Assembly: GCA_902583585.1 (NCBI GenBank) | Contig: CACHWN010000006.1 | Location: 1 to 64,000 of the forward strand | Source of the DNA: an uncultured Pelagibacteraceae bacterium | GTDB lineage: Bacteria > Pseudomonadota > Alphaproteobacteria > Pelagibacterales > Pelagibacteraceae | Direction: 5' to 3' | DNA: 64,000 nt | Position numbers and translations under genes: made by a program | Shown here: in pieces, positions 22,570 to 42,291 of the stretch | How the letters are laid out: each line of letters starts with the position of its first letter | Numbering within the stretch: position 1 is the first letter of the stretch | Notes under the pieces: generated by a model | The model's database searches: none | What the model was told of the DNA's origin: nothing | What the model saw: the letters and a program-made list of their open reading frames with translations, nothing else

Positions 22570-22692
22570 ATGAATTCAATTTTTCTATTTTTTTTGACGG
22601 CATATATTATCTATTATCTTTTTAGACCTGTAACAAAAAAAGAAATAGAGAAATTTGAAGATCCTGATAACTGGTCAAATATGGGTCTTTAA
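22570..22692 (+). CDS. Putative 40-residue single-pass membrane microprotein
   Basis: A short open frame starting with ATG at 22570 and ending with TAA at 22690-22692. The product begins MNSIFLFFLTAYIIYYLF, a clear hydrophobic helix of about 16 residues, followed by RPVTKKEIEKFEDPDNWSNM, a charged soluble tail. The switch from membrane helix to amphipathic charged tail is what a real small membrane protein looks like, and the 133-base gap upstream otherwise leads nowhere. It overlaps the 3' end of the convergent HDAC-family gene by 18 bases. Function unknown; chance reading frame not excluded. Confidence 0.5.
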   Translation: MNSIFLFFLTAYIIYYLFRPVTKKEIEKFEDPDNWSNMGL

Positions 22693-25174: not shown

Positions 25175-26146
25175 ATGGAATTAACAATCGAAAAAGCCAA
25201 GTTTCATCAAATTTCCTTAAAACAAGTAAGCGAAGCTTTAAAAAAAGGTTTATCAAAAAACTATATTGAAGTTGATGTTTCAATTGTTGAATGTCCTGAT
25301 CTAAGAAAGTGGGATTGCCCTGCTGAAGGTATAAGTGGAAACCAAAGAATTATAGATGTTGGAGGTGAACCATACATGCACGACAAAAGGTTCATAGGTA
25401 CTGAATTTGATTATGAAGAAATAGCAACAAGAATAGGCTCGGAAAAATCATATGCTTTAGGTGCGGGATCAGGAGCAATGTCGTGCTTAGAGGGTCACTG
25501 TGGAGAGCTTATCATTAATGAAAATTTAATTACTAATGAGTCAAAATCAATAATTGCTCAAATTGATGAAAATAAAAAATGTAAATCAACTTCTTACAAT
25601 CACCGAAAGCATGGCGGACTAGGAAATATCTATTACTCTGAGGGGAAAAAAGGAGATGTTATAAAAATTAAAATTAAAGGAAGGTCAGGTGAGCAAGGTT
25701 CTTTACCTCAGTCTATGAGAACTGCACTAATTGAAAATTTACAAACAAACTTTAGTGTTGCGCTGGGTGGTGTATTTAGGATCTTAAATGGTAAGATTAA
25801 ATCCCATGTCCAACCAGACTATGCAGATATAAAACACGAATATTATGATCCAAAACAAATGAAATGTGTTAAGGATTTTTTACAATTTTACGAACCTATA
25901 GGGCCACATTTTCAATGCTATTCAGTTTTATGGACTAATGATCCCTCTGGAGGAAAATTAGATTTAAGAGAGTCAGGAGAACACACTCATTTTCATTCTT
26001 ATAAAGGAACTCAGGATGCAGGTCATTATCATTTCGATGTAACCCCTAATGAAATTGAATATGAATGCTATTTCAATACCGCCGAAGAAGTTCATAGAGT
26101 AAACAATATTTACAAGGAATTGAAAAATACTAAAAAGAAACTTTAA
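25175..26146 (+). CDS. DUF1907 (C11orf54-like) metalloprotein
   Basis: A 323-residue protein of the DUF1907 family, known from the animal protein C11orf54, a zinc-binding putative ester hydrolase. Family landmarks are VECPDLRKWDCPAEG (38-52), GNQRIIDVGGEPYM, LGAGSGAM and the C-terminal zinc cluster GEHTHFHSYKG (H270, H272, H274) with HYHFDV (H284, H286). Many bacterial genomes lack it. It is a single plus-strand gene whose stop codon shares four bases (26143-26146, TTAA) with the stop of the convergent EamA transporter. Physiological role unknown. Confidence 0.85.
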   Translation: MELTIEKAKFHQISLKQVSEALKKGLSKNYIEVDVSIVECPDLRKWDCPAEGISGNQRIIDVGGEPYMHDKRFIGTEFDYEEIATRIGSEKSYALGAGSGAMSCLEGHCGELIINENLITNESKSIIAQIDENKKCKSTSYNHRKHGGLGNIYYSEGKKGDVIKIKIKGRSGEQGSLPQSMRTALIENLQTNFSVALGGVFRILNGKIKSHVQPDYADIKHEYYDPKQMKCVKDFLQFYEPIGPHFQCYSVLWTNDPSGGKLDLRESGEHTHFHSYKGTQDAGHYHFDVTPNEIEYECYFNTAEEVHRVNNIYKELKNTKKKL

Positions 26147-27069
26147 TCTTTTTTAATAGGGATAGTCGGGTGTCTCGCTGTTGAAGTAACAATATTTTTC
26201 TTTAATTTAACTTCTCTCAAAACAATATATACACCTGCTGCAATTATTATTAAGTTTCCTATATAATTATTAATTGTAGGTATTTCGTTAAAAACAACAT
26301 AACCCAAAAATACACCTGCAAAAATTTGAGTATATAAAATTGATCCAAAAATCGCTCCAGGTAGGTGTCTGGCAGCATTGATAACAAATATCATGGCTGT
26401 TCCTCTAGAAATTCCAGAAATAGCGTTCAAAACTAAATCATTAAAAGTCATCTCTTTGAAAACAAAGAATACAAATATACCAGAAAACAATATCATAAAA
26501 ATCTTTCCAAATATTAAAAATGAAAACAAACTCTCTTCATAACCATATTTTCTTACTATTAAATAACTTGCAGACGCAAAAATTGGGCACAACAAAGCTA
26601 CAAACACGTAACTGTTAATTTCGGCTCCAAAAGGATTAATAGAAATAAGTGTTCCGATAAAGCCAATTACTATAGCAGTAAATCTTTTCCATCTAACAAC
26701 TTCACCTAAAAATAAAACCGATCCGATGGTTATTAATAATGGTATTAAAAATACAATACTGTACATAGTAACCATTGGTAATAAATAGAATCCTGTGTAG
26801 GCAAAAAAAACGGCTAATACCATCGTTAAAGTTCTAAAAAAATGAATTTTTAAATTAGCACCCTTTAATTCTTTCCAGCCATCAAGGGTTTGGGTGTACA
26901 AAATAATAGGTATAAGAGCAAACAAGGAATTAACGAAAATTATCTGTATTATGTCGTAATCTTCAGCAATATATTTTACTATTGCGTCTTGAGTTACAAA
27001 TAAAAAATATCCAAGACAAGCTAGAAAAAATTCGGGAAGATAATTCTTCTCCGATAATTTTGAATTCAT
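26143..27069 (-). CDS. EamA/DMT-family transporter
   Basis: A 308-residue inner-membrane protein with about ten hydrophobic helices in two EamA repeats (about 10-145 and 155-290). Typical elements are a first helix with CLGYFLFVTQDAIVKYI, a repeat end with GEVVRWKRFTAIVIGFIGTLI, and a last helix ending GVYIVLREVK. Relatives export amino acids, metabolites or S-adenosylmethionine-like compounds. It starts on the last base of the phytanoyl-CoA-type dioxygenase gene and is the final gene of the minus-strand transporter arm. Substrate cannot be predicted. Confidence 0.88.
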   Translation of the reverse strand: MNSKLSEKNYLPEFFLACLGYFLFVTQDAIVKYIAEDYDIIQIIFVNSLFALIPIILYTQTLDGWKELKGANLKIHFFRTLTMVLAVFFAYTGFYLLPMVTMYSIVFLIPLLITIGSVLFLGEVVRWKRFTAIVIGFIGTLISINPFGAEINSYVFVALLCPIFASASYLIVRKYGYEESLFSFLIFGKIFMILFSGIFVFFVFKEMTFNDLVLNAISGISRGTAMIFVINAARHLPGAIFGSILYTQIFAGVFLGYVVFNEIPTINNYIGNLIIIAAGVYIVLREVKLKKNIVTSTARHPTIPIKKD

Positions 27070-28052
27070 TAGATAATATTGGGTAAATCTCTTTTTGATC
27101 CTTTGAAAGTAGGAAGAGGATATTTATATGACCATTTTCTTGGAATGCATTTTGCTTTAGCTTTTTCCCATAAAGCAATCCATTGTTTGTAATTTTGCAC
27201 TTTGATTTTATTTTTGTTTTTGCTTTTGACAATAAAATTAGGTAATGGATCTCTTCCAGAGGGTTGGCCTGCTTTATTATACCTTAAGTCCATACTAATT
27301 CTAAAATTTTTCGATTTATTTGGAAGCGAACAATGAAGTAGGTATCTATTTAATAATATTATATCGCCGACATCAGCTTCAAGAGGCACGGTTGATAATT
27401 TATCAATGATTTCTTTACCTTTTATCTCCACTTGTCCTTTGCTTCCGGTAACGTGGTTAACAAGTCCAAATTTATGACTTTCTTTAACAGCAAGCATACA
27501 ACCATTTTCTATTCTTGTTTTAGTAAAAGGTATCCAACAAGTTACTAATTCAGTACCCTTCTGTCCTTTTTTATTCATAACGCCGGCATCTTGATGCCAA
27601 GGTGTTCTTCCAACTAGGCCGTCATTTAAATTCTTTTTTGCAACACCTTTTTCAGGTTGTTTAATTCTTGAATTTTGACAAGGATTAGAAGCTATCTCGG
27701 GACCTAGAATTTTTTCAATCTTATCTAAAATCTTTTTATTTTTAATTAAATTCCATATTGATTGACTCGCAAAAAAATCACTATTAGCGTTTATGTTTTT
27801 TTCAGGAAGTCTTATGTTAAAATATTGATCAAGCTCGGGGATATCTAAAGAAACCAAATATGAATATTTTTTCTTAAACTCATAATTTAATACTTTTACT
27901 TTATCGCTTTTAGAAACAAATCTATGAATAAGCCTATCCATGATAAAAGCCATATCATTTAAAATTGGTTCTAAATCCTCTTTATAATCTAAAACGCCCT
28001 TTAATCTTATGAAGCCTTGTTTCTCAAAAATTCTTTTAATATTTTGGTTCAT
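27069..28052 (-). CDS. Phytanoyl-CoA dioxygenase (PhyH) family Fe(II)/2-oxoglutarate oxygenase
   Basis: A 327-residue non-haem iron oxygenase. The 2-His-1-Asp triad is visible as H153 and D155 in TPWHQDAG and H240 in YLLHCSLPN, with 2-oxoglutarate-binding R251 in NFRISMDLRY. PhyH-family enzymes hydroxylate CoA esters, amino acids, ectoine and many small molecules, so the substrate is open. It lies 38 bases after livG and shares a base with the EamA gene, which puts it in the same transcriptional direction as the importer. It suggests that the imported compound, or a derivative, is oxidised. Confidence 0.88.
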   Translation of the reverse strand: MNQNIKRIFEKQGFIRLKGVLDYKEDLEPILNDMAFIMDRLIHRFVSKSDKVKVLNYEFKKKYSYLVSLDIPELDQYFNIRLPEKNINANSDFFASQSIWNLIKNKKILDKIEKILGPEIASNPCQNSRIKQPEKGVAKKNLNDGLVGRTPWHQDAGVMNKKGQKGTELVTCWIPFTKTRIENGCMLAVKESHKFGLVNHVTGSKGQVEIKGKEIIDKLSTVPLEADVGDIILLNRYLLHCSLPNKSKNFRISMDLRYNKAGQPSGRDPLPNFIVKSKNKNKIKVQNYKQWIALWEKAKAKCIPRKWSYKYPLPTFKGSKRDLPNII

Positions 28053-28090
28053 TAAATCGATATGATTTAAAAAATAATATCAAATCCACT

Positions 28091-28888
28091 TTAGACTGCA
28101 AGAGCTTTTCTCATCTCTTCATCGTCCATTTTTTTACCCAAATACGCCTCGATTACAGCGTTGTCATCTTTAACTTGAGCTGGAGTACCCTCTGCAATTT
28201 TCTGACCATGGTCAAAAACAGTTACTGAATTACAAGTATCCATTACGACTTTTAAAATATGCTCAATAATAATAAGAGTAAGGCCATATTTTTCTTTCAG
28301 CTGCATAATAATTTTCATTAGATTATCTACATTGACTGGAGATAAACCTGCGGCTGGTTCGTCTAACATTAGTAATTTTGGTTTCATAGCAATTGCTCTT
28401 GCTAAAACTAATAATCTTCTCTGACCTCCAGAAAGCTCACTAGCGTTAAGCTCTGCATAGTCCGCTAATCCTACAAAAGAAAGGAGTTCCATCATTTCCT
28501 CTTTAATAGCTCTTTCTTGATCCCAGATTTTTTTTCTTCCTATAACTGCATCGAAAAACTTGTAAGGAACTCTAGTATGATACCCTGACATAACATTATC
28601 TATAACTGTCATATCTTGATAAAGTCTTAGTAATTGGAACGTTCTTGATAAACCATAACTAGCAATCTCATGTGGAGGTGTAAAAGTAATATCATGACCA
28701 TCAAACTCAATATAGCTTCCAGGATCACTATCATAGATTCCTGAAACTAAATTAAAAAATGTACTTTTGCCTGAGCCATTGGGTCCAATTATTCCTCTAA
28801 TTTCATTTTTTGGAAGTTCAAAATCAACTTTATTAATAGCTTTCAAACCACCAAATGATTTAGATAATTGTTTAGTTTTTAAAATCAT
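28091..28888 (-). CDS. livG: LivG-type ABC transporter ATP-binding protein
   Basis: One of two ATPases of a branched-chain-amino-acid-type (HAAT) importer. The Walker A motif is GPNGSGKST, the ABC signature LSGGQRR and Walker B LLMLDEPAAGL, followed by IIEHILKVV with the switch His. The C-terminal EAYLGKKMDDEE matches LivG tails. Length 265 residues. It overlaps livM by 4 bases. Its partner ATPase LivF is in the divergent arm at 32109. Despite the name, members of this family carry many substrates including amides, short acids and aromatic acids. Confidence 0.95.
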   Translation of the reverse strand: MILKTKQLSKSFGGLKAINKVDFELPKNEIRGIIGPNGSGKSTFFNLVSGIYDSDPGSYIEFDGHDITFTPPHEIASYGLSRTFQLLRLYQDMTVIDNVMSGYHTRVPYKFFDAVIGRKKIWDQERAIKEEMMELLSFVGLADYAELNASELSGGQRRLLVLARAIAMKPKLLMLDEPAAGLSPVNVDNLMKIIMQLKEKYGLTLIIIEHILKVVMDTCNSVTVFDHGQKIAEGTPAQVKDDNAVIEAYLGKKMDDEEMRKALAV

Positions 28889-29877
28889 GTTGTTTTTTCT
28901 GTTCCAGTTTTCTTTTTAAATCTCTTTTCTAAGAAATATCTGTCAATAAAACCGCCTAAACCCTTAGGCATAAATAAAATAGTTAATACAATTGTTAAGC
29001 CAAATATTAAAAGCTGATATTTATATAATGGTCTAGTTAAGTCATAAACAATAGTAATTACTATAGCGCCAATAATTCCACCCCAAATATGACCTAGACC
29101 TCCTAGGACAACCATAGCTAAGAAGGTTACCATTTCTATAACTGTGTAATTATTAGGATGAATGTATCCTGGAGGCATGTGAGCATAAACTGCACCTGCC
29201 GCTCCAGCAAACATAGCGCTAAGAATAAAAGCTAAGATCTTATATTTTTTTACATTAATTCCAGCGGCTGCAGCACAAATTGGATCCTCTCTGATAGACA
29301 TAAACGCTCTTCCAACTCCAGATCTCAAAATACTGAATGAGAAATAAACCGCTATAATCATTATTGTCATTGAGATGAAATAATATCTATCTGGAGAGTC
29401 GAAGTTGTAACCCATTAAAGAAGGTGTTGGAATATCAGAAATACCAAATGTAGATCTAAAAAAGTTTCCGTTTTCAATAAATAATCTTATTGCCTCACCT
29501 CCACCTAATGTCGCTAAGGCTAAATAAGGACCTTCCAATCTAAAAGATGGAATTCCCATTGCTACTCCAAAAAATGCGGTAACTATTATAGCTATGGGTA
29601 AAGTTGCCCAAAAACCAAGTCCTAAATATAAAAACAATGTTCCAGCGGTATAAGAACCTACTGCAAATAAACCAACGTGTCCTACTGTAACTTGACCGCA
29701 ATAACCCTTAACAATGTTTAGTCCTGCGGCAACCACAATGTTCACAAATATTAAAGTAGCTAAATGTGATTGATAAACATCCGTGAAAACTACTGAAGGT
29801 ACAAAAGCTAAGATGACGAAAGCTATAATAAAAGCAATAAAAGGATAATCTCTGATAATCGATTTAAATTTTTCCAT
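28885..29877 (-). CDS. livM: LivM-type ABC transporter permease
   Basis: Inner-membrane permease, 330 residues with about eight to ten hydrophobic helices. The family signature is clear: NIVKGYCGQVTVGHVGLFAVGSYTAGTL read in two pieces (about 53-65 and 66-80), the RLEGPYLALATLGGGE block, SIREDPICAAAAGINVKKYK and the C-terminal GGLGHIWGGIIGA. It overlaps livG by 4 bases and shares one base with the upstream oxygenase gene. The matching second permease LivH is at 32821-33858 on the other strand. Confidence 0.95.
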   Translation of the reverse strand: MEKFKSIIRDYPFIAFIIAFVILAFVPSVVFTDVYQSHLATLIFVNIVVAAGLNIVKGYCGQVTVGHVGLFAVGSYTAGTLFLYLGLGFWATLPIAIIVTAFFGVAMGIPSFRLEGPYLALATLGGGEAIRLFIENGNFFRSTFGISDIPTPSLMGYNFDSPDRYYFISMTIMIIAVYFSFSILRSGVGRAFMSIREDPICAAAAGINVKKYKILAFILSAMFAGAAGAVYAHMPPGYIHPNNYTVIEMVTFLAMVVLGGLGHIWGGIIGAIVITIVYDLTRPLYKYQLLIFGLTIVLTILFMPKGLGGFIDRYFLEKRFKKKTGTEKTT

Positions 29878-30743
29878 TATCCAACTTCTCTCATTAAATA
29901 ATCTGAGTCATGTGAAGATGTGAGCATTCTTTTGTTTGTTTTCTTAATTTTGGGTAAATAGCTAACGTTTTTATATCTCCATACAACAGGTTTACTCAAA
30001 GCATAACTTCCATAAATGAAAAATCTTTTCTTACCTTTGATTTCTCTAAATAAAGATACACCATGGTAAGAGTTAGGTGTAGATTGGAAAAAAATTACAC
30101 TCCCTTTTGACGGAGTAAATTCTTTAACTTTTACTAGTTCAGAAATACCAGGAAATCTTTTAAAACTTTTTCTATATTTCATATCAGTTTTCTTTTTAAA
30201 AATTGATAAAGCTCCTCCATTTTTTTTTGGTATATCGTTTAAATAAATAAGAAAATTATAAAGTCTTGTTACATCATCTCTGTGCGGCCTTAATCTATAA
30301 CCGCCTCTAGAAACAGAAAAATCTATGTCTAAGTTTACATTCGGGTTTTTATAAGTTTTACCTAACATTTTCATTAATTCTTTTGAATTCATCAATTTTT
30401 TATTTGTAAATTTTTCCCGCAAAAATTTGCTAGGCAAGTATGCATTAGACCAACCATAATCCTTAAAAGTTTTTTTAAATCTATTTTCAACTTTTTTGTA
30501 AAAAAATTGGCTATTAAATTGTTTATATAATTTGTTAGATAATTTTGATTTTTTTAAATAATTTTTAAAATTACTTGACCCTTTGTTAATTCTATTTCTA
30601 CCGCCTTGTATTAAATCATCAAATGATTTTGCATTTCGAATTTCGTCTATAAGTTTTTCACAATCTTTTTTTGAAATAGCACTTTTGCCAACCATTACAG
30701 GAAAGTTACTTTTTACTTTCTTCAATTTATTAACGTTTATCAT
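29877..30743 (-). CDS. 2OG-Fe(II) oxygenase family protein inside the transporter operon
   Basis: A 288-residue protein with a prolyl-4-hydroxylase-like double-stranded beta-helix. Metal ligands are H154 and D156 (RPHRDD) and H227 (SYHGVS), with R240 (KKRFFIYGSY) placed to bind 2-oxoglutarate; GGALSIF and GSVIFF are typical strands. The N-terminal 130 residues are very basic and match nothing I recognise. Its position, between the binding-protein gene (after a terminator hairpin) and livM, is unusual and ties it to the imported substrate. It is distinct from the PhyH-type enzyme downstream. Confidence 0.82.
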   Translation of the reverse strand: MINVNKLKKVKSNFPVMVGKSAISKKDCEKLIDEIRNAKSFDDLIQGGRNRINKGSSNFKNYLKKSKLSNKLYKQFNSQFFYKKVENRFKKTFKDYGWSNAYLPSKFLREKFTNKKLMNSKELMKMLGKTYKNPNVNLDIDFSVSRGGYRLRPHRDDVTRLYNFLIYLNDIPKKNGGALSIFKKKTDMKYRKSFKRFPGISELVKVKEFTPSKGSVIFFQSTPNSYHGVSLFREIKGKKRFFIYGSYALSKPVVWRYKNVSYLPKIKKTNKRMLTSSHDSDYLMREVG

Positions 30744-30765
30744 TTTTGTGGTTTCCTTGAAAAAA

Positions 30766-30791
30766 TGAGCGGTAGTTTTACCTACCGCTCA
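30766..30791. terminator. Strong bidirectional-looking hairpin terminator after the binding-protein gene
   Basis: TGAGCGGTAG (30766-30775) and CTACCGCTCA (30782-30791) form a perfect 10-bp GC-rich stem with a 6-base loop. On the minus strand it is followed at once by a run of T residues (30760-30765 read in reverse); on the plus strand a T-run follows two bases later. It lies between the periplasmic binding-protein gene and the rest of the minus-strand operon, so it should stop most transcripts after the binding protein and set its level above that of the permease genes. Confidence 0.85.
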
Positions 30792-30806
30792 CAATTTTTT
30801 TAACTA

Positions 30807-31997
30807 TTATAAACCAGCGCTAGCATTAAATGTTACAGTGCCAGCAACTTTTGTTTTAAAGTTTTTTCCACCTTTAGTGTACTCAATCATAACAGGAGTT
30901 CTGTTACCATCTCTACACTCAGGCGTTCCTGATTTACAGAAATTGATTGGACCAGAAGCTAAACCTCTAAAGTCAGTTGTTGCAGCAATTGCGTCTCTAA
31001 CTTTATTTCTGTCAGCTGCTAGATCTCCAGTGAATTTAACTTTTTTAAGAGCTATCTCTAGAATATCAAGTAAGTCCATCATTTGTGAAAAGTCGTGACC
31101 AGGTACAACACCATATTTGTCTTTTACCATTTTCACAAATTTCTTAGCTACAGGTCTAGTGTCAGATGCAGCGAATGCAGCTGAGAAAGTTACACCTTTT
31201 GCAGCAGAACCAGCATTTATTGGTATCTCTACTTTAGAACCAATAGAAGCTGTTACTCTGTGAACAGATTTTGGTATTCCAACTTCATAAGATTGTACAA
31301 GTCCTCTAACTGTTTCATCCAATAAAGCTGAAATTACAAGAACTTCTGGATTAGTAGCTTTAGCTTTAGTTAAGTAACTTCTAAAGTCAGTTTCTTTTTC
31401 TCCAGATTGAACCATATAAGTTGGCTCAACGTTGTAGTTCTCTCTCATGTAATCAGCTAAAGATAATGCAAAATCTTTACCAGCAGCATCTGGACCATAG
31501 ATGTAAGCTATCTTAGTACCTTGATTTTCTGCAGTAAATTTACCTTGTACGATTTTGTAAAATCTTGATGATACAGGTACTCTAAAAATGTATTCACTAC
31601 CTTTTTTAGTAATGTCAGCATTTGTTGAGTGAGGTATGATTTGTGGAACTTTAGCTTTAGCTGAAACAGGCACCATAGGTAATGTTACAGAACTACAGCT
31701 AGATCCAATTATAACGTGAACTTTATCTTGGTAAGCAAGTTTTGTTGCGTTTGCTACACCTTTTTCAGATTTACACTCATCGTTATAAAGTGTTAAGTCG
31801 ATTTTTTGACCGTTGATAGTGCCTTCTTTATTCCACTTTGCAACAGTATCAGTAATTAACTCTCCGTGTTTATAACCAACATCTGATAGCATTCTAAAAG
31901 AAACACCAATTTTGATTGTTTCTGCTTGAGCTAAAGTTGTGATTACTAAACCTGCGGAAAAGACAATTGCTGAAAAAACAAATTTAAGTTTATTCAT
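30807..31997 (-). CDS. Periplasmic ligand-binding protein of a LivK-type ABC importer
   Basis: Secreted solute receptor, 396 residues from the chosen ATG at 31997, which has a GGGGGA Shine-Dalgarno six bases upstream; an in-frame ATG four codons earlier is less likely. The signal peptide has a basic start (MNKLKF), a hydrophobic core and a cleavage site after AQA. The mature part starts ETIKIGVSF and shows the type I periplasmic fold with NDECKSEKGVANATKL, IIGSSCSSVTLPM and a LPQII-like PQIIPHST. Three additional Cys (CSS, NFCKSGTPEC) could form disulfides. The ligand is unknown. Confidence 0.93.
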   Translation of the reverse strand: MNKLKFVFSAIVFSAGLVITTLAQAETIKIGVSFRMLSDVGYKHGELITDTVAKWNKEGTINGQKIDLTLYNDECKSEKGVANATKLAYQDKVHVIIGSSCSSVTLPMVPVSAKAKVPQIIPHSTNADITKKGSEYIFRVPVSSRFYKIVQGKFTAENQGTKIAYIYGPDAAGKDFALSLADYMRENYNVEPTYMVQSGEKETDFRSYLTKAKATNPEVLVISALLDETVRGLVQSYEVGIPKSVHRVTASIGSKVEIPINAGSAAKGVTFSAAFAASDTRPVAKKFVKMVKDKYGVVPGHDFSQMMDLLDILEIALKKVKFTGDLAADRNKVRDAIAATTDFRGLASGPINFCKSGTPECRDGNRTPVMIEYTKGGKNFKTKVAGTVTFNASAGL

Positions 31998-32108
31998 TAT
32001 TTCCCCCATTTGTTATTTAATTGTTGCAGAGGCTATAAAATAATAGTTATAATGTCTATGACTAATAGTTACATTTTTAGTAAATCAGAAAAAAAAATTG
32101 GAGGATAA
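31998..32108. promoter_or_regulatory. Divergent control region of the two importer arms
   Basis: A 111-base gap from which both arms of the catabolic/transport locus start. On the plus strand TTGCAG (32024-32029) and TATAAT (32048-32053) are 18 bases apart, a good sigma-70-type promoter for livF. On the minus strand TAGACA (32053-32058) is a one-mismatch -35 box overlapping that -10, though no strong -10 follows. Overlapping divergent promoters would couple the two arms. No operator-like inverted repeat or nearby regulator gene is visible. Confidence 0.5.
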
Positions 32109-34802: not shown

Positions 34803-34807
34803 GACTT

Positions 34808-36721
34808 GTGTCTAAAGAAATTATTTGGCAACCATCAAAAGAGCAAATTGAAAATTCAAAACTAACTAAGTTTATACAGCATTGTAAATTAAAAAATTAC
34901 GACGAACTTGAGAAAAAAAGTTTTTCTGATCCTGGATGGTTATGGGACAATGTAATCAAATTTTCGGATTTAAGATTTTATAAACCTTACTCAAAAATAT
35001 TAGATGAATCAAAAGGTACTCCTTGGACAAGGTGGTGTATCGGAGGCAAAACTAATATAGTTTTAAATTGTATAGATCGACATAAAGATAAAGAATTTTT
35101 TAAAAACACTTTCATTTTTGCCGAAAGAGAAGACGGAAAAGAAAGCTCAATTACTTATGAAGAATTTGATAAGCAAATCTCAAAGGTTGGGAATACTTTA
35201 AAAGTAAATGGCTTTAAAAAAGGTGATGTAATCGCACTTTACATGCCTCAATTTATAGAAACTTATATTGCCTACTTTGCTATTTTAAAAATTGGGTGTG
35301 TAGTGCTTCCTTTATTCTCTGGATATGGATCAAAGGCAGTTATTGAAAGACTCAATATAGCAAAAGCTAAAGGTATTTTTACTGTTGAGAAAACATTTAG
35401 AAAAGCAAAAGAGATAAGAATGTTTGATCAAATTAAAAATGAATTAGATCAAGTCATTTCTTTAGAAAAAATTTTTTTGTTAGGAAAAGAGAAAGGAAAG
35501 AAAATCTTTAATTGGGAAAATTTTCAAAATGTTTCTGATAATTTAAAAACAGAGGAAACCGATGCTGAGGATCCTGCTATTATACACTTTACATCAGGTA
35601 CAACCGGAAAACCCAAAGGATGTGTTTATACTCATATTGGTTTAGTTGCTAAGATGTCTTTTGATGAAGGAGTTTTAGCAGACTTTAAACAAACAGATAT
35701 TCATTTGTGTATGGCTGATATGGGATGGATGGTGGGTTCTAAGTCTGCAACAATAGCTTCTGCACACGGAGCGCAAATGGTAATTGCTGAAGGAGTGCCT
35801 GATTTTCCCGATGAGGTTCGTTTTTGGAAACTTATTGAAAAATACAAAATTTCCTGGACGGAGCTTTCCCCTGCTCTCATCAGAGCGCAAATGATTAAAG
35901 ATGAAAAACTTTTTAAAGATTTAAATTTAAGCTCACTCAGAATGATTTGTACTGGTGGAGAACCTTGGACAGAAAAACCTTGGAAATGGTTATTTCAAGT
36001 CATTGGTAAATCTAAAGTTCCTATTATGAATTCAGCTGGGGGTACTGAGGTTTCTGGTTCTATTTTGCATTGTTGTTTACATCGTCCTTTTAAGGTCGGA
36101 TCTTTTAATGCTCCCATTCCCGGAATGAGCGCAGACATCTTAAATTTAGATGGAAAAAAAGTTTCTACAAATGAAATGGGTGAATTGGTAATGAGAAAAT
36201 CATCAATCGGATTAACAAAAAGTTTATGGAATGACGATAAGCGTTACATCGATAATTATTGGAGTGTAATTAAAGATTATTGGGTGCATGGTGATCTTGC
36301 AAGTAGAGATGCTGATGGCCATTGGTACTTACATGGAAGGTCTGATGATACCATAAAAGTATCAGGCAAAAGAATTGGTCCATCGGAACTCGAGAGCGTA
36401 ATAGCAAAAAGTGGAAAAGCAAAAGAGGTCGCTGCTGTTGGAATACCTGACGCAAATAAAGGGTCAAAAATTATTTTATCTATCGTTCCTGCAGAAAATA
36501 ATGATCAAAAAGAAAGTTTTTTTGAAGATTTAGTTATAAAAGATTTAGGGAAATCATTTAAGCCTGATAAGGTAATCTTTGTAAAAGATTTACCTAAAAC
36601 AAGAAATATGAAAATTATGAGAAGAGTTATAAAATCATGTTTAGCAAACCAAGACCCGGGTGATTTATCAACGCTATTAAATCCAGAATCTGTAGAGGAG
36701 ATAAGATCACATGCAATTTAA
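34808..36721 (+). CDS. AMP-forming acyl-CoA synthetase (acetyl/acetoacetyl-CoA synthetase-like)
   Basis: Adenylate-forming ligase of 637 residues starting with GTG at 34808. An ACS-type N-terminal domain (WLWDNVIKFSDLRFYKPYS) is followed by the P-loop HFTSGTTGKPKGCVYTH, a central GGTEVSGS block, the hinge GRSDDTIKVSGKRIGPSELES, and the C-terminal catalytic Lys in PKTRNMKIMRR. It activates an organic acid to its CoA thioester; the acid is unknown, but the long N-terminal domain fits short or branched acids. It overlaps the crotonase gene by 11 bases, so both probably act on the same CoA ester. Confidence 0.92.
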   Translation: MSKEIIWQPSKEQIENSKLTKFIQHCKLKNYDELEKKSFSDPGWLWDNVIKFSDLRFYKPYSKILDESKGTPWTRWCIGGKTNIVLNCIDRHKDKEFFKNTFIFAEREDGKESSITYEEFDKQISKVGNTLKVNGFKKGDVIALYMPQFIETYIAYFAILKIGCVVLPLFSGYGSKAVIERLNIAKAKGIFTVEKTFRKAKEIRMFDQIKNELDQVISLEKIFLLGKEKGKKIFNWENFQNVSDNLKTEETDAEDPAIIHFTSGTTGKPKGCVYTHIGLVAKMSFDEGVLADFKQTDIHLCMADMGWMVGSKSATIASAHGAQMVIAEGVPDFPDEVRFWKLIEKYKISWTELSPALIRAQMIKDEKLFKDLNLSSLRMICTGGEPWTEKPWKWLFQVIGKSKVPIMNSAGGTEVSGSILHCCLHRPFKVGSFNAPIPGMSADILNLDGKKVSTNEMGELVMRKSSIGLTKSLWNDDKRYIDNYWSVIKDYWVHGDLASRDADGHWYLHGRSDDTIKVSGKRIGPSELESVIAKSGKAKEVAAVGIPDANKGSKIILSIVPAENNDQKESFFEDLVIKDLGKSFKPDKVIFVKDLPKTRNMKIMRRVIKSCLANQDPGDLSTLLNPESVEEIRSHAI

Positions 36722-37481
36722 AGATATATTATATGAAGTTAAAGGTGATTACGCTTATGTAACTATAAATAGACCTAAAGTATTAAATGCTTTTACACCA
36801 GTTACTCTTCAAGAACTTAAGACAGCTCTTGATAATGCAGAAAAAGATAAAGAAGTTGGAGTAATTGTTTTGTCAGGTGCTGGAGATAGAGCCTTTTGCT
36901 CAGGTGGAGATATGAACTGGGAAAGCTCTAAAGAATTTCAAGATCATGAATACGAATTTCATATTCACTTAACAAAATGTAGTAAACCAATCATAGCTAA
37001 AGTGGATGGATACGCGATTGGTGGTGGAAATCATATGGCTTACTTTTGTGATTTAACTATAGCAAGTGAGAATTCTATATTTGGTCAAAATGGACCCAGA
37101 GTTGGTTCTCCCGCGGGAGGAGCTATAGTTGCCCACTCTGCAAATATTTTAGGACACAAACGTGCAAGAGAAATGTGGATGACTTGCAAAAGATACTCAG
37201 CAAAAGAGATGATGAATTGGGGTTTGGTAAATTCAGTAGTGAAGAAAGATAAATTAGATGAGGAAGTTAAAAAGTATGGTGATGAAATTTTAAAAGCTGC
37301 ACCAACTTGTTTAAAGATATTAAAGGCCAGTTTTAGAAAACAATTTGAAGAAATATTAAAAATTACCCAAAAAGGTATGGTCGAAGAAGTTGCACCTGAT
37401 TATTTTAAAACTGGAGAACAGGCTGAGGGCGCAAAGGCCTTTCTAGAAAAAAGGAAGCCGAATTTCAAAAAATTTAGATAA
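36711..37481 (+). CDS. Enoyl-CoA hydratase/isomerase (crotonase) family protein, MenB/BadI-like
   Basis: A 256-residue crotonase. Oxyanion-hole segments are AGDRAFCSGGDM and YAIGGGNHMAYFCDLTIAS. The stretch FGQNGPRVGSPAGG resembles MenB and 2-ketocyclohexanecarboxyl-CoA hydrolase (BadI) more than ordinary FadB-type hydratases, which suggests C-C bond formation or cleavage chemistry next to a 1,3-dicarbonyl CoA ester. No other men genes are present, so menaquinone synthesis is unlikely. It starts inside the acyl-CoA synthetase frame and shares TAATG with the next gene. Confidence 0.9.
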   Translation: MQFKDILYEVKGDYAYVTINRPKVLNAFTPVTLQELKTALDNAEKDKEVGVIVLSGAGDRAFCSGGDMNWESSKEFQDHEYEFHIHLTKCSKPIIAKVDGYAIGGGNHMAYFCDLTIASENSIFGQNGPRVGSPAGGAIVAHSANILGHKRAREMWMTCKRYSAKEMMNWGLVNSVVKKDKLDEEVKKYGDEILKAAPTCLKILKASFRKQFEEILKITQKGMVEEVAPDYFKTGEQAEGAKAFLEKRKPNFKKFR

Positions 37482-38569
37482 TGAAAATTAAATCAATCAA
37501 AGCAATCACTTTGAGTATGCCGTTTAACCATGGAGGAAAAAAGGTAATTTTTCATGGAAAAGAATGGAAAAGTTTAGAATTTAACTTAGTAAAAATTGAA
37601 ACAGATAAAGGTATCACTGGTTGGGGTGAAGCCTTTGGTTATACAAGTTGGAAAGCAGTAAAAATTGCAATCGAAGAAATGGTGGCTCCTTTAATTGTAG
37701 GAAAAGATATGAGTAATATACCGGAACTTCTTTTAACTCTTCAAAAATCTTTGCATTTATTTGGTAGATACGGGATAACAATGTTTGCAATATCTGGTGT
37801 TGAAATTGCATTATGGGATGCTTTAGGCAAAGAAAAAAGTAAGCCAATTCATGAATTGTTAGGAAAAAAAAATAAAGATCTATTTAAAGCCTATTCAAGT
37901 CTTTTTAGGTATGGAGATCCAAAAATTATAGAACAAAAATGTAAGCAATCTTTAGACGACGGTTATCAAGCAATTAAACTACATGAAATAGAGAATGATT
38001 GTATTGAGGCTGGTAGAAAAGGAACAGGTGATCTTCCTTTAATGTTAGATACCAATTGTCCTTGGACTTATGAAGAAACACTATCCAAAAAAGATTTTTT
38101 AAAAAGCATGAAACTCACTTGGTTAGAAGAACCTATTTACCCACCTGAAGATTATGAAACTCTCGCAAAATTAAATAAAGAACTAGGGATACCTATAGCT
38201 TGTGGAGAGAATGCATGTACAGAATATGAGTTTAAGTCAATGATTAAACAAAAAGCAGTTACTTTTATTCAACCGTCGGTAATAAAAGTTGGTGGTATTT
38301 ACGAGATGTTCAAAATAATTCAGCATGCAGAAAAAAATGATATCTCTGTAATGCCTCATACTGCTTATTTTGGGCCAGGTTTTTTAGCTACGCTTCAATT
38401 AGCTGCGTTAATGGAAAAGGATACCTATATTGAGAGATTCTATTTGGATATTGATCAAGAATTTTACCCAAATTTTAAAAGAGCGTTGAATGGAAAGTAT
38501 AAATTACCTTCAGGACCAGGTCTTGGAATTGATTTAGATTATAATAAATTAAGTAAGTATGAAATATAG
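37481..38569 (+). CDS. Mandelate racemase / muconate lactonizing enzyme (enolase superfamily) protein
   Basis: A 362-residue enolase-superfamily enzyme. The barrel carries the base motif K166-x-H168 (AIKLHE), metal ligands D190 (MLDTN), E216 (LEEP) and E243 (CGEN), and the opposing H293 (MPHTAYF). This KxH arrangement belongs to the mandelate racemase-like subgroup, whose members mostly dehydrate or epimerise sugar acids or 2-hydroxy acids. The capping domain reads VKIETDKGITGWGEAFG. It overlaps the CitE-like gene by 11 bases. Confidence 0.92.
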   Translation: MKIKSIKAITLSMPFNHGGKKVIFHGKEWKSLEFNLVKIETDKGITGWGEAFGYTSWKAVKIAIEEMVAPLIVGKDMSNIPELLLTLQKSLHLFGRYGITMFAISGVEIALWDALGKEKSKPIHELLGKKNKDLFKAYSSLFRYGDPKIIEQKCKQSLDDGYQAIKLHEIENDCIEAGRKGTGDLPLMLDTNCPWTYEETLSKKDFLKSMKLTWLEEPIYPPEDYETLAKLNKELGIPIACGENACTEYEFKSMIKQKAVTFIQPSVIKVGGIYEMFKIIQHAEKNDISVMPHTAYFGPGFLATLQLAALMEKDTYIERFYLDIDQEFYPNFKRALNGKYKLPSGPGLGIDLDYNKLSKYEI

Positions 38570-39212
38570 ATCTGTTTTATTCGTTCCTGGACATGAAGAA
38601 AAAAAAATTAAAAAAGCATATACATTAAATTCAGATTTAATTGTTCTTGACTTAGAGTCAACTGTTCCTGAAGACCAGAAAGATCAGGCTAAAAAAATAA
38701 TAAAAGATTGCAATGTTAATAAAAATCAAACATATATAAGAATTAATAAAAATTCTGACTTAGAATTTGTAACATCAGAAAAATTCCCTGGGATATTTCT
38801 TCCGTTCACTGAAACAAAAAAACAGTTAATCGAGATAGATATATTATTAAAAAAAACCGAAAAATTAAAAACCGATGTAATCCCAATTTTGGAAAGTATA
38901 AACGGACTAGCTAATCTTGATGAAATTTGCTCTTTTAAAGAAAGAATCAAAATTATATCCTTTGGCTCTCATGATTTAGCTAAATCTATAAATCTTAAGA
39001 TTTCAGAAGATGAAAAAGAAATTTTAGAATTTAGAAAAAATATAGTTAATAAGTCTAAAAATATTCAAAAACCAATAGATACCTCTTATCTAAATTTTAA
39101 GAATTTGAATGGATTCGAAGTCTCATGTAATTTAGTAAAAAAATTAGGATTTGGTGGTAAAGCATGTATTCATCCAGATCAAATTAATATATCAAATAAA
39201 ATATTTGAATGA
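38559..39212 (+). CDS. Short CitE-like (HpcH/HpaI aldolase family) protein
   Basis: A 217-residue member of the citrate lyase beta / malyl-CoA lyase family. It opens with RSVLFVPGHEEKKIKKA, keeps IVLDLES, IRINKNSD, PILESINGLANLDEI, ISFGSHDLA and the closing GFGGKACIHPDQI. It is shorter than usual (about 270-300) and the normally conserved LEDAV and vlPK segments read LESTVP and LPFTETK, so the metal/CoA site may be altered. It could cleave a 3-hydroxyacyl-CoA produced by the preceding enzymes. It overlaps the first Gfo/Idh/MocA gene by 4 bases. Confidence 0.82.
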   Translation: MKYRSVLFVPGHEEKKIKKAYTLNSDLIVLDLESTVPEDQKDQAKKIIKDCNVNKNQTYIRINKNSDLEFVTSEKFPGIFLPFTETKKQLIEIDILLKKTEKLKTDVIPILESINGLANLDEICSFKERIKIISFGSHDLAKSINLKISEDEKEILEFRKNIVNKSKNIQKPIDTSYLNFKNLNGFEVSCNLVKKLGFGGKACIHPDQINISNKIFE

Positions 39213-40252
39213 AAAATAAAGTTAAAGTAGCAGTTGTAGGGATTGGGCTAATGGGGAGTCAACATTTAAAAGCTTTAAATTTATCTAAAAAAGCTAAATT
39301 ACACTCTATAGTCGATTTAAATAAAAAATCAGAAATTCATGCTAAAAAATTTAAAGTTCCATTTCATAATTCATCAAAAGAGTTATTAAAAAATGATAAA
39401 CCAGATGCTGTGATCGTGGCTACCCCTAATCAGTTTCATGAAAAACATACAATCAGTTTTTTAAATGCTAAAATACCAGTTTTATTAGAGAAACCAATTT
39501 CAGATAATATTTTAAAGGCAAAAAAAATAATTCAAAGTTCAAAAAAAAATAAAACTCACCTTCTTATTGGTTATCACAGAAGACACAATTCTATTGTAAC
39601 AAAAGTTAAAAAACAGATTGATAGTGGAAATTTAGGAAAAATAGTTGCAGTAAATGTTATGTGTTGGTTGTATAAAAATAATGATTGGTATAAAGAGAAA
39701 TGGCGAATTAAAAAAGGTGGTGGGCCTTTAGGCATTAACCTTGTTCATGATATAGATTTAATATGTTATCTATTGGGTCCAGTCACACACGTTCAAGCTA
39801 CAACTTCTAATAAAATTAGAAAGTACGAGGTTGAAGATACTGCAATTGTAAATTTTACATTCAAAAGTGGAACTTTATGCACATTAAGTGTTTCTGACAC
39901 TATTGTAGCACCATTTAGTTACGAATTAACAGCCGGAGAAAATCCAGCTTATCCAATTACAAATCAGTCTGCTTATTATATTGGTGGGACTAAAGGATCG
40001 ATACAATTTCCTAACTTAAAACACTGGTACAACAAAGGTGAGAGAAGTTGGTGGAAGCCAATTTATCATAAAGATTTTAATATTCGACTAAGTAGATTTA
40101 CTCTAATAAATCAAATAGATCATTTATGTGACGTTGTTCTGGGCAAAGCTAAACCTAAAGTAAGTGGAAATGACGGCTTGCAATCACTTAAAATATTTGA
40201 TGCCATAATAAGAAGTAATAAAACTGGAAAAAAAGTTAGAATTAATCGATGA
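39209..40252 (+). CDS. Gfo/Idh/MocA family oxidoreductase (first of three)
   Basis: NAD(P)-dependent sugar/polyol dehydrogenase family, 347 residues. The Rossmann loop is VGIGLMGSQHLKAL, followed by VATPNQFHEKH and the catalytic-Lys motif LEKPIS; the second catalytic region is GGGPLGINLVHDIDLICYLLG, carrying the His-Asp pair. Relatives oxidise inositol, glucose-type sugars and similar alcohols. It is coupled by 4-base overlaps to the CitE-like gene and to the next oxidoreductase, and it is clearly different in sequence from the other two. Confidence 0.92.
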   Translation: MKNKVKVAVVGIGLMGSQHLKALNLSKKAKLHSIVDLNKKSEIHAKKFKVPFHNSSKELLKNDKPDAVIVATPNQFHEKHTISFLNAKIPVLLEKPISDNILKAKKIIQSSKKNKTHLLIGYHRRHNSIVTKVKKQIDSGNLGKIVAVNVMCWLYKNNDWYKEKWRIKKGGGPLGINLVHDIDLICYLLGPVTHVQATTSNKIRKYEVEDTAIVNFTFKSGTLCTLSVSDTIVAPFSYELTAGENPAYPITNQSAYYIGGTKGSIQFPNLKHWYNKGERSWWKPIYHKDFNIRLSRFTLINQIDHLCDVVLGKAKPKVSGNDGLQSLKIFDAIIRSNKTGKKVRINR

Positions 40253-41379
40253 AAAAGTTAAGACTTGGAATTATCGGTGGAGGCCCTGGTTCTTGGATTG
40301 GTCATGTACATAGAATAGCTTCAAGATTTGATGATAAATATGAGATTGTAGCAGGTGTTTTTACAAGAAATTATAAAATCAACCAATCATTTGGAACAAG
40401 CTTAGGAGTTAAAAAAAATAGATGTTATAAAAATTATAAAGACCTCTGCTTTTTTGAAAAAAAGATCAAAAAAGGAATCCAAGTGGTTGCAATTATGACT
40501 CCTCCTGGAAGCCATCAAGAAATAGCGGAATTATTTATTAAAAATAACATTCATGTGATATCTGATAAACCTTTTGCAGGATCTCTCTCTCAAGCTAAAA
40601 AACTTTTTAAAACAATTAAGAAAAATAAAAAAATAATTTATGGACTAACTCATAATTACTCTGCTTACCCTATGGTTAGACACGCAAAAAAATTAATTGA
40701 AGATAGAAAAATTGGAGATGTTGAGTATATTAATGTTGAATATGTTCAAGACTGGACAAATGGAAAAAAAATTACTCCTGGTAATGCTAAAAAGGTATTC
40801 AAATGGAAATTAGATAAAAAGATAGCTGGGGTTTCTACAGTATTAAATGAAATTGGATCTCATGCGTATCACCTATGTAATTACATAACTGGTCTTAAAG
40901 GAAAAAGTTTATTTGCTGATATAAAGCAATACTCAAAAAAAATTAAATTTGATACTAATGCTCAAGTTTTTATAAATTACGAAAATGGGGCAAAAGGATT
41001 GTTTTGGGCTTCTACAACTGCCAAAGGTGGAGTTTACGGATTACGAATTAGAATTTTTGGTTCTAAAGGAAGTTTAGAATGGGTACAAAATAAACCTGGA
41101 TATTTAAAATATAACGCTGCCAAGGGCGCTACTAAAATTCTTGAAAGAGGGTTTAATGAGAGTGGTTTTTCAAAAAAATTTTCAAGAATTAAATATGGAC
41201 ATCCAGAAGGATATTTAAGCGCATTTTCTAACTTATATAAAGAAATTGCTTCAAAAATTAACTCTAATAAAAGTAAAAGAAGATTTTATTTTCCAACTGC
41301 TTACGAAGGTTTGCTTACAGCAAAATTTATAGATGGATGTGTTAAGTCATCAGCTAGAAAAAAATGGGTAGCATTTTAA
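40249..41379 (+). CDS. Gfo/Idh/MocA family oxidoreductase (second of three)
   Basis: A 376-residue oxidoreductase. The dinucleotide loop is IGGGPGSWIGHVHRIA, a variant with an inserted Ser-Trp typical of one Gfo/Idh/MocA subgroup; MTPPGSHQEIAEL and SDKPFAGS contain the cofactor and catalytic Lys sites (DKP instead of EKP), and NEIGSHAYHLCNYITG carries the active-site His. This subgroup often acts on sugar acids or cyclitols. It ends one base before the third oxidoreductase, so all three are co-transcribed. Confidence 0.92.
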   Translation: MKKLRLGIIGGGPGSWIGHVHRIASRFDDKYEIVAGVFTRNYKINQSFGTSLGVKKNRCYKNYKDLCFFEKKIKKGIQVVAIMTPPGSHQEIAELFIKNNIHVISDKPFAGSLSQAKKLFKTIKKNKKIIYGLTHNYSAYPMVRHAKKLIEDRKIGDVEYINVEYVQDWTNGKKITPGNAKKVFKWKLDKKIAGVSTVLNEIGSHAYHLCNYITGLKGKSLFADIKQYSKKIKFDTNAQVFINYENGAKGLFWASTTAKGGVYGLRIRIFGSKGSLEWVQNKPGYLKYNAAKGATKILERGFNESGFSKKFSRIKYGHPEGYLSAFSNLYKEIASKINSNKSKRRFYFPTAYEGLLTAKFIDGCVKSSARKKWVAF

Positions 41380-42291
41380 ATGATAAAATCCTGTGTAATA
41401 GGATTATCAAAAATTGGAAGAATTCATTGTGAGAGTATATTAAAAATAAAAAAAACTTCTCTTAATTATGTTTTTGATAAAAATTATAATCTTGGTAGAA
41501 AACTATCTCAAAAGTTAAAATGTAATACCTCAAGAGACTTTAACAATATATTAAGAAAAAAAGATATAAAACTTTTTATAATTGCATCTCCAACAAATAC
41601 GCATGACTTTTATATAAAGAAATTGATAAAATATAAGAAAATGATCTATTGTGAAAAACCAATTGTAAGAAATAATAAAAAACTTATAAGAATTATAGAT
41701 TTAATCCAAAAGAATAAAATAAAGTTTTGTGTGGGTCTAAATCGTAGATTTTCAAAAGAATATTTCTCTTTAAAAAAAAGAGTAAATAAAAAACGAGTAA
41801 AATATATTCAAATTATATCTAGATCATCCAATCATGATGTAAATTTATCTATAAGAAATGGTGGTCTTTTTTTTGATAAAGGCTTTCATTTTTTTGATTT
41901 AGCATGTTGGTTAGGTAACTCAAAACCCAAACAGATAGAAGTTATTGCAAAATCAATTAGTACAAAAGATTTCCTCGATAGAGGAGATTTTTCTGATGCT
42001 GTAGTAAATTTAAAACTTAAAAACGGTGTAAATGTCGAGATGGTTTTCAGTAGAAAATGTAGACTTGGAAATTACGAAAAAATAAAAATATACGGTGAAA
42101 AATTTATCTTAGATTCAGATAATTTTTCAGAAAAAAAAGAATTATATGAAGATTTTTCAGTTAGACACAGAAAGTCATATTATAAATGTCTAAAAAAATT
42201 TATTGATAATAAGAACAATCTTTTATTGAGTGAAGCGATAATAGCTCAAAAAATCTGCGCAAACGCTTTAAATAAAGGTAAAAAAAATTAA
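41380..42291 (+). CDS. Gfo/Idh/MocA family oxidoreductase (third of three)
   Basis: A 303-residue, very Lys/Asn-rich member of the family. The Rossmann loop is IGLSKIGRIHCESIL, followed by IASPTNTHDFYIKKL and CEKPIVRNN with the catalytic Lys; the active-site His is in FFDKGFHFFDLACWLG. It is the shortest of the three, lacking part of the C-terminal sheet extension. It ends the 10.2-kb plus-strand operon and converges on lpxB with one base between stops and no terminator hairpin. Function is inferred from family only. Confidence 0.88.
   Translation: MIKSCVIGLSKIGRIHCESILKIKKTSLNYVFDKNYNLGRKLSQKLKCNTSRDFNNILRKKDIKLFIIASPTNTHDFYIKKLIKYKKMIYCEKPIVRNNKKLIRIIDLIQKNKIKFCVGLNRRFSKEYFSLKKRVNKKRVKYIQIISRSSNHDVNLSIRNGGLFFDKGFHFFDLACWLGNSKPKQIEVIAKSISTKDFLDRGDFSDAVVNLKLKNGVNVEMVFSRKCRLGNYEKIKIYGEKFILDSDNFSEKKELYEDFSVRHRKSYYKCLKKFIDNKNNLLLSEAIIAQKICANALNKGKKN

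Follow-up and report, generated by a model that had tools for sequence, protein, structure and literature searches.

What does a SAR11 bacterium import and degrade with a locus in which a Liv-type transporter stands back to back with acyl-CoA, enolase-superfamily and Gfo/Idh/MocA enzymes? We analyzed such a locus in 64,000 nucleotides from an uncultured Pelagibacteraceae bacterium (NCBI GenBank assembly GCA_902583585.1, contig CACHWN010000006.1, positions 1 to 64,000), a stretch referred to below as the window. It lies on contig 6 of a genome of 922 kb that is 83% complete and has its close relatives in the Pelagibacteraceae. A sequence-only reading had described one locus at 26143-42291 and suggested a single linear pathway in which the imported compound is hydroxylated or oxidized, activated to a CoA ester and cleaved. 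All genes it named are present, open and located where they were placed, and Pfam confirms their families. The pathway itself was not supported as stated, because the modules of the locus also occur apart. The families are ordinary; their combination is unusual, well conserved and clearly bordered. No description of this locus was found in the literature, in a search limited to open-licence papers.

The locus is part of a genomic island that appears to be assembled from modules. Module 1 is a Liv-type importer cassette, module 2 consists of a PanE-like dehydrogenase, a PhyH-type oxygenase, an optional Fe(II)/2-oxoglutarate (2OG) oxygenase and a DUF1907 protein, module 3 is an acyl-CoA synthetase-crotonase pair, and module 4 is a sugar-acid-type end with MR/MLE, CitE-like and Gfo/Idh/MocA enzymes together with SDR and FAH-like enzymes. 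The explanation that we tentatively prefer is that this modular island serves putative import of a polyhydroxylated carboxylate, non-phosphorylated catabolism of sugar-acid or cyclitol type, beta-keto-acid decarboxylation, CoA activation and C-C cleavage.

The borders of the island were deduced from relatives in which the site is empty. The neighborhood of lpxB, as we name the right-flank gene from its likely identity, was read in seven of 20 genomes searched. In four of these stretches (L259, L260, L261, and L263) an HDAC-like gene abuts lpxB, and the aligned lpxB end is at most 3 bases from the start of the HDAC-like gene. L259, L260, and L263 come from same-genus genomes without the island, and L261 from a genome (G127) that has the island elsewhere. 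In the window the genes from SDR through Gfo3 all stand between the HDAC-like gene and lpxB. Since the two abut at the empty sites, the whole unit extends from about 23605 to 42292 and comprises 19 genes, including those for the SDR, FAH-like and DUF1907 proteins. The locus as first drawn had omitted these three genes (23601-26146). In G127 and G164 the island is found on a different contig from lpxB, that is, in more than one chromosomal location. Because relatives have the site unoccupied and its location varies, it is a flexible SAR11 genomic island. The border carries no tRNA or integrase: there is no tRNA in the window and no recombinase among the 19 genes according to Pfam, and Rfam found no RNA in the window. 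Of the remaining lpxB neighborhoods, L262 (G164) gave no HDAC match next to lpxB. The HDAC-lpxB site of L258 (G034) has another occupant, a Gfo2 relative (69%) with an SDR and no Liv or CoA genes. In L257 (G113) Gfo3 and Gfo2 adjoin lpxB, after which the stretch ends; LivK, synthetase and DUF1907 were not found in G113. DUF1907 is accompanied at either end of islands by a FAH-like gene, whose identity to that of the window is 71-97% in some and only 38-41% in others, and in g6 genomes the pair, with a FAH-like protein 38-39% identical to that of the window, is at the opposite island end.

Synthetase orthologues were found in 10 of 247 sampled Pelagibacterales genomes, with 85-100% identity including the window and at most 35% for the other matches listed. 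Seven belong to the 24 genomes of the window's genus and three to the four genomes of a second genus, g6. LivK (E 1e-50) was found in the identical set of genomes, in agreement with the earlier view of one conserved transport-plus-catabolism locus. DUF1907 (E 1e-20) was found in 48 of the 247 genomes, namely the 10 island genomes and 38 of a third genus, g3. It is present in 10/10 island genomes versus 0/18 other g1 and g6 genomes (Fisher p = 7.6e-8, which is no true probability since the genomes are related). An in-frame stop was flagged in eight of these 48 matches; in G185 (L217) the open reading frame has 322 amino acids with the stop at its end. A crotonase scan of named genomes gave 74 loci, of which 72 were SAR11. 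These 72 overlap the 247-genome sample, and L149 and L150 belong to a single genome; the two counts are therefore not independent. From one set of rows drawn from these loci we dropped L144 and L146, which are not SAR11, and eight contigs that duplicate genomes of the 247-genome sample (L094, L095, L098, L114, L118, L124, L127, and L140). All 11 core genes were on the contig in 51 of the 74 loci, with the same order and strands in 48 of the 51, a conservation far beyond chance. The exceptions are L125 and L137, with split or doubled matches, and L136, an inversion. The sequence-only reading would have yielded to scattered homologues or to arms that vary independently. The outcome was mixed: the order proved conserved, but the Liv cassette was found to vary largely independently of the right-hand backbone.

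This variation is seen in protein distances. Within the set of five Liv genes the correlations are 0.87-0.99, while Liv genes versus flanking lpxB give only 0.10-0.35. Synthetase, Gfo1, Gfo2, and Gfo3 versus lpxB give 0.86-0.97, and PanE, crotonase, MR/MLE, and CitE 0.55-0.69. In these figures lpxB was present in 32 of 73 sequences and related sequences are counted repeatedly. Matches below 42% identity (30% for FAH-like) were dropped to exclude LivF taken for LivG, which reduced the LivG rows from 62 to 54 and raised the LivG correlations. L083 and L132 are 97-98% identical in synthetase and 77% in LivK. Two alleles of the Liv cassette, types A and B, are thus exchanged between similar islands. 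Where a contig covers both LivK and LivM, the 2OG gene is present in 33/33 of type A, 1/21 of type B (L132) and in the single intermediate (1/1); the contig of L102, another type B locus with the 2OG gene, stops short of LivM.

The cassette encodes a complete HAAT/Liv-type ABC importer, with a binding protein, a pair of permeases and a pair of ATPases, split as first described with K, M, and G on the minus strand and F and H on the plus strand. The minus arm has the order LivK, 2OG oxygenase, LivM, LivG, PhyH, EamA, and the plus arm the order LivF, LivH, PanE-like, synthetase, crotonase, MR/MLE, CitE-like, Gfo1-3. The described coupling of nearly all plus-strand genes holds, with joints of -26, -1, +5, -11, -1, -11, -4, -4, and 0 bases. 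So does the control gap between the arms, provided that LivK is translated from its second Met, which corresponds in position to the first ATG in relatives. The gap sequence differs between type A and type B cassettes (33 gaps aligned, chosen from 46 distinct). Type B gaps (L112, L080, L113, and others) contain an imperfect inverted repeat, CTTCGGCG...CGxCGAAG, and a ATTTAATTAAAT-like stretch, both of which are lacking in the aligned type A gaps including that of the window. The inverted repeat is possibly an operator. A hairpin separates LivK from the rest of the minus arm and may be an attenuator that favors the binding protein over the permease. The claim that no regulator is encoded stands for the 19 genes of the window (Pfam) but not for most g3 relatives read or for G127, which carry a small gene with a weak SarA/MarR-type match. 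In L136 the LivK-LivF-LivH-PanE segment is inverted in place, so that LivK precedes the synthetase.

The families of the importer, acyl-CoA synthetase and crotonase are named after pathways of branched-chain amino-acid import and degradation. The GPEG stretch of E. coli LivK and LivJ, in which Glu226 of the leucine-binding protein is presumably the glutamate that recognizes the amino group, is PKSV in aligned type A and type B LivK (the alignment is gapped nearby), and this substitution argues against leucine binding. Moreover, the ATPases LivG and LivF score below their equivalog cut-offs, and by Pfam none of the 19 genes belongs to a family of transaminases, keto-acid dehydrogenases or acyl-CoA dehydrogenases. 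On residues and cut-offs, ordinary amino-acid catabolism was rejected as extremely improbable. Structure predictions from alignments of 11 close relatives of LivK and 12 of the 2OG enzyme reached a mean predicted local distance difference test score of 49.7 and 55.5, respectively, which is insufficient for comparing pockets. When the 2OG model was searched against PDB folds, nothing matched at E <=0.001; the weak top rows were PasI, PolD and OGFOD1/prolyl-hydroxylase-type proteins.

The second module may point toward sugar acids or cyclitols. DUF1907 aligns almost full length to human PTD012/C11orf54 and keeps the zinc-type HTHF...GHYH motif. A PNAS commentary describes human C11orf54 as the beta-ketogulonate decarboxylase and reports that rotifers have DUF1907 fused to 3HCDH dehydrogenase domains (PMC12435205). 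In g3, 15 of the 38 DUF1907 loci were read in stretches of 11-20 kb. The PanE-like gene (73-77%) is divergent from and adjacent to DUF1907 (70-76%) in 15/15, and 2OG and PhyH genes (57-67%) are present in 14/15, L211 being a contig that ends in PanE. A PanB-like gene is found in 13/15 and a Gfo2 relative of 65-68% in 9/15, with one of 40% in a tenth locus. IolD is nearby in all 15 (802 bits versus a cut-off of 715) and IolE was matched in nine (412 versus 290). Searches of these stretches for close relatives of the Liv cassette, synthetase and crotonase matched none. This inositol-type cluster thus resembles the island in its relatives of PanE-like, DUF1907, 2OG, PhyH, Gfo2 and, where present, the PanB-like gene, but its transporter is of sugar or TRAP type rather than Liv, and IolD, often IolE, ALDH and an HpcH aldolase replace the synthetase, crotonase, enolase-family and CitE-like enzymes of the island. 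PanE-like, PhyH, 2OG, and DUF1907 accordingly form a module common to both. In wider samples DUF1907 is rare: it was found in 1/367 class genomes (E 1e-20) and 1/349 phylum genomes (E 1e-10), in both cases the window's own, and tblastn of plasmids gave no relative of DUF1907 (E 1e-15), FAH-like (1e-10) or LivK (1e-25).

Since PanE-like is the constant partner of DUF1907 in the g3 loci read, and given the activity of human C11orf54, we infer that PanE-like may generate, and DUF1907 decarboxylate, a beta-keto acid. The human glucuronate-xylulose pathway, with L-gulonate 3-dehydrogenase and C11orf54 (PMC12435205), is similar in its DUF1907 family with zinc-type histidines and in that the DUF1907 gene of the SAR11 relatives adjoins an NAD(P)-dependent dehydrogenase gene; it differs in that the island dehydrogenase is of the ketopantoate-reductase family and that the island is bacterial, with an importer and CoA enzymes. 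A bolder proposal, possible but speculative, is that PanE-family dehydrogenase and DUF1907 decarboxylase would correspond in bacteria to the gulonate 3-dehydrogenase/beta-ketogulonate decarboxylase step, within a new non-phosphorylated SAR11 route, the core being set either into the inositol-type cluster (g3) or into the Liv-importer/CoA island (g1, g6), with swappable importers giving access to new substrates.

The PanB-like gene could suggest another function, catabolism of a pantoate-like branched hydroxy acid, in which PanE-like would oxidize a 2-hydroxy acid, the PanB-like enzyme release a one-carbon unit and the keto acid pass to CoA. Eight of the 10 sampled islands (G118, G186, G038, G127, G173, G217, G234, and G164) and 13 of the 15 g3 stretches have the gene beside DUF1907 or EamA (one copy is L210 8313-9128), and the closest solved relative of PanE-like is 3wfi. 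However, PanB-like is absent from the window, in which a 4-base overlap joins DUF1907 to EamA, and from G196 and L108; elsewhere in the window's own genome, 83% complete, only a 29% paralogue was found. Its score of 107 bits also falls short of the cut-off of 272. We consider this reading improbable. Ketopantoate-reductase-family genes stand beside VOC, MaoC, CoA-transferase and AroQ genes in L177 (Enterococcus raffinosus) and L179 (Caballeronia). Such plasmid PanE relatives (about 35%, with MaoC, CoA transferase, VOC and AroQ context in 2/3 records opened) were set aside as too distant to serve as evidence.

The third module was characterized by its residues. The synthetase scores 467 versus 657 and 459 versus 725 bits against acetyl-CoA synthetase cut-offs, and SAGGTE takes the place of the TWWQTE of E. 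coli Acs, with Trp414 being, as we assume, the tryptophan of the acetate pocket. Acetate is therefore an unlikely substrate, and acetate activation was rejected on these residues and the curated cut-offs. The crotonase is of the MenB/BadI branch as first assigned, but has VGSPAGG in place of VGSFDGG/VGSVDPG, with Ala in the column of the aspartate that we take to be the conserved Asp163 of VGS-x-D in MenB, and it remains below the cut-offs of both families. These residues argue against MenB/BadI chemistry, and ring cleavage of BadI type by the synthetase-crotonase pair was dropped because the aspartate is absent. The BadI/AliA operons for cyclohexanecarboxylate likewise combine a BadI-branch crotonase with a CoA ligase; unlike these, the island lacks an acyl-CoA dehydrogenase and the BadI aspartate, and its ligase is of a different family. 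By eye, with no well-studied hydratase aligned, the crotonase also seems to lack the first of the hydratase glutamates (presumably Glu144 and Glu164 in enoyl-CoA hydratase) in its QNG stretch, the second being kept as AREM.

Relatives of this pair were found outside SAR11. In two f99 genomes (48% and 43%) and in Leisingera (59%), crotonase relatives adjoin a synthetase; in Leisingera a distant FAH-like protein follows. At class level, synthetase relatives were found in 19/385 genomes including that of the window (E 1e-115); the other 24 places are 35-44% identical, and in the 20 of them read the island was not brought along. Liv-type genes (26-44%) stand beside a synthetase of this group in 2 of these 20 loci (L157 and L166), and near a 53% crotonase relative in Tepidamorphus (L144), which backs a link between importer and CoA enzymes.

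That link, the strict co-occurrence of LivK and synthetase and the conserved order of overlapping genes count in favor of one linear pathway, from import through 2OG hydroxylation and synthetase activation to cleavage by crotonase and CitE-like enzyme. The 2OG gene is, however, missing from 20/21 type B loci and PhyH from L133, and in the g3 stretches read neither synthetase nor crotonase accompanies PanE, 2OG, PhyH, and DUF1907. In addition, two plasmid relatives of the enolase-family enzyme are in other kinds of operon, and the apparent loss of a hydratase glutamate fits the scheme poorly. We regard such a pathway as rather unlikely.

In the fourth module, MR/MLE keeps the superfamily residues and KxH in the six sequences aligned, and all 17 NCBIfam matches are below cut-off. 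Operons of the oxidative uronate pathway carry uronate dehydrogenase (UDH) and an MR/MLE cycloisomerase (Agrobacterium Udh/Gci). In L116, L126, and L129 a 4.95-kb insert places TRAP genes, an M24 peptidase-like gene and UDH before a 60% MR/MLE version, and the UDH copy of L116 matches the solved 3ay3 (181 bits) and 3rft (175 bits). Three of 48 plasmid records with MR/MLE relatives were opened (Agrobacterium, Bosea, and Caballeronia). A UDH-like gene directly precedes the MR/MLE relative in Agrobacterium MA01, with TRAP genes before it, and in Bosea F3-2, with TRAP genes nearby; the Agrobacterium gene that follows looks, by eye, like an aldose 1-epimerase. The three SAR11 variants share this arrangement with the oxidative uronate operons, whereas the window has neither TRAP nor UDH, and its MR/MLE gene follows CoA genes, with about 42% identity of the enzyme to its plasmid relatives. 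With DUF1907, these UDH variants and the iol-cluster relatives, the sugar-acid or cyclitol character that had been suggested is strengthened. None of the three Gfo/Idh/MocA enzymes reaches the cut-off of 355 for IolG inositol dehydrogenase (TIGR04380): Gfo1 scores 145, Gfo2 48, and Gfo3 157 bits.

The CitE-like protein matches RipC at 92 bits, which could suggest catabolism of a C5 dicarboxylate of itaconate or citramalate type with the synthetase, the crotonase as hydratase and the CitE-like protein as citramalyl-CoA lyase. The RipC cut-off of 375 is far from reached, as is that of CitE (105 versus 443), and the 217 amino acids of the protein compare with 273-339 in 11 solved matches. As the crotonase also seems to lack one catalytic Glu, and the Gfo, enolase, PanE, and DUF1907 genes would be left unexplained, the itaconate pathway was rejected on residues and cut-offs, and C5 dicarboxylates in general are very improbable.

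In 10/70 loci the crotonase and enolase genes are separated by an insert, of 0.5, 1.16, or 4.95 kb. In L077 (6968-8122) and L078 the insert encodes a secreted-looking protein of 384 amino acids, of which the L077 copy has a weak serine beta-lactamase-family match, and an insert of equal size is present in L102, L113, L130, and L150. Between CitE-like and Gfo1, L082 (12454-12903) has a GGACT/AIG2-like gene of 149 amino acids; a gap of this size is found in 32/62 loci and is lacking in the window.

Such inserts, the different genes held by G034 at the site, the modules that occur apart and the exchange of Liv alleles would also fit an insertion hot spot where unrelated, co-inherited catabolic modules are stacked and no single function exists. 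This is unlikely in our view, as the whole set is kept in one order in 48/51 contigs and at different chromosomal sites, and as FAH-like and DUF1907 are found at either end.

Several observations nevertheless weigh against the modular catabolic island that we prefer. PanE-family enzymes normally act at C2, and the beta-keto step requires PanE-like to act at C3; this is for that reason a weak step. The PanE subfamily is also the only one to reach its NCBIfam cut-off among the matches listed, at most 25 per protein. With respect to the CoA pair, a third f99 genome (L151) has no crotonase-synthetase pair, the f99 crotonase aligned retains the MenB/BadI aspartate, the Leisingera synthetase is only 25% identical, the crotonases of Celeribacter and Salipiger (50-51%) are not beside a synthetase, and a close crotonase relative is adjacent in only 2/20 of the class-level synthetase loci read. 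The best plasmid MR/MLE relative, that of Caballeronia (42.6%), lacks a neighboring UDH and is instead surrounded by genes of amidohydrolase, hydrolase and FAH families. Finally, G034 and G113 carry Gfo genes at the site without a findable rest, as exceptions to an all-or-none distribution.

Table 1. Position and family matches of features in the window.
Feature	Coordinates	Strand	Matches and remarks
HDAC-family gene, left flank outside island	22675..23604	-	abuts lpxB in L259, L260, L261, L263
SDR dehydrogenase, left island end	23601..24347	-	Pfam adh_short 120.6 bits; absent between HDAC and lpxB at empty sites L259, L260, L261, L263
FAH-superfamily, 2-keto-4-pentenoate-hydratase-like enzyme	24344..25123	-	NCBIfam HpaH 52.7 bits, far below cut-off 351.5; no Pfam match; weakly similar to solved 1sv6
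DUF1907 protein, C11orf54/PTD012 family	25175..26146	+	PF08925 213 bits (cut-off 25); PDB 1xcr 134 bits
EamA/DMT permease	26143..27069	-	Pfam EamA 57.8 bits
PhyH-type Fe(II)/2OG oxygenase	27069..28052	-	PF05721 70.8 bits; WHQD and HCS..R motifs kept in 4 aligned sequences
LivG-type ATPase	28091..28888	-	ABC_tran and BCA_ABC_TP_C; NF008449 235 bits vs cut-off 362
LivM-type permease	28885..29877	-	BPD_transp_2 136.7 bits
2OG-FeII_Oxy_3 oxygenase, optional gene	29877..30743	-	PF13640 40.5 bits; HxD...H...R invariant in 12/12
G+C-rich hairpin with T-run	30765..30792	.	11-pair terminator-like stem
LivK-type periplasmic binding protein	30807..32009	-	Peripla_BP_6 121.8 bits
Divergent control gap	31998..32108	.	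between LivK and LivF
LivF-type ATPase	32109..32828	+	ABC_tran; NF008626 221 bits vs cut-off 441
LivH-type permease	32803..33858	+	BPD_transp_2 119.9 bits
PanE-like, ketopantoate-reductase-family dehydrogenase	33858..34802	+	ApbA/ApbA_C; TIGR00745 248 bits vs cut-off 141; best solved relative 3wfi
Acyl-CoA synthetase, ACS/AACS group	34808..36721	+	AMP-binding, ACAS_N; under cut-offs of the 25 NCBIfam matches listed
Crotonase, MenB/BadI branch	36711..37481	+	ECH_1; badI 251 vs cut-off 467.6, menB 235 vs 342.7 bits
MR/MLE enolase-superfamily enzyme, KxH motif	37481..38569	+	MR_MLE_C 152 bits
Short CitE-like HpcH/HpaI lyase, 217 amino acids	38559..39212	+	HpcH_HpaI 100.5 bits
Gfo/Idh/MocA oxidoreductase 1 (Gfo1)	39209..40252	+	GFO_IDH_MocA Pfam
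Gfo/Idh/MocA oxidoreductase 2 (Gfo2)	40249..41379	+	GFO_IDH_MocA Pfam
Gfo/Idh/MocA oxidoreductase 3 (Gfo3), right island end	41380..42291	+	GFO_IDH_MocA Pfam
lpxB, right flank outside island	42293..43438	-	adjoins HDAC-like gene at empty sites

In the modular island as we tentatively propose it, the binding protein would capture a polyhydroxylated carboxylate, i.e., a sugar acid, a cyclitol or a lactone of one, which Gfo/Idh/MocA and SDR enzymes would oxidize. The MR/MLE enzyme may dehydrate the oxidized compound to a 2-keto-3-deoxy acid. PanE-like would form a keto acid of which DUF1907 decarboxylates the beta-keto form, with no sugar phosphates involved, and the CitE-like and FAH-like enzymes would cut or hydrate fragments. 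A small keto acid would then be activated by the synthetase, and its CoA ester cleaved or rearranged by the crotonase, while the 2OG enzymes may adapt variant substrates.

SAR11 ranks with the most abundant marine bacteria, and the diet encoded on its accessory islands helps to decide the fate of dissolved carbon; this island offers a bounded set of 19 genes together with a binding protein for ligand screening. As the SAR11 relatives of DUF1907 adjoin a plausible partner dehydrogenase, the bacterial role of a human family that was only recently explained becomes testable. Importer cassettes that are swapped while the catabolic backbone is conserved would also illustrate how streamlined genomes change their diet.

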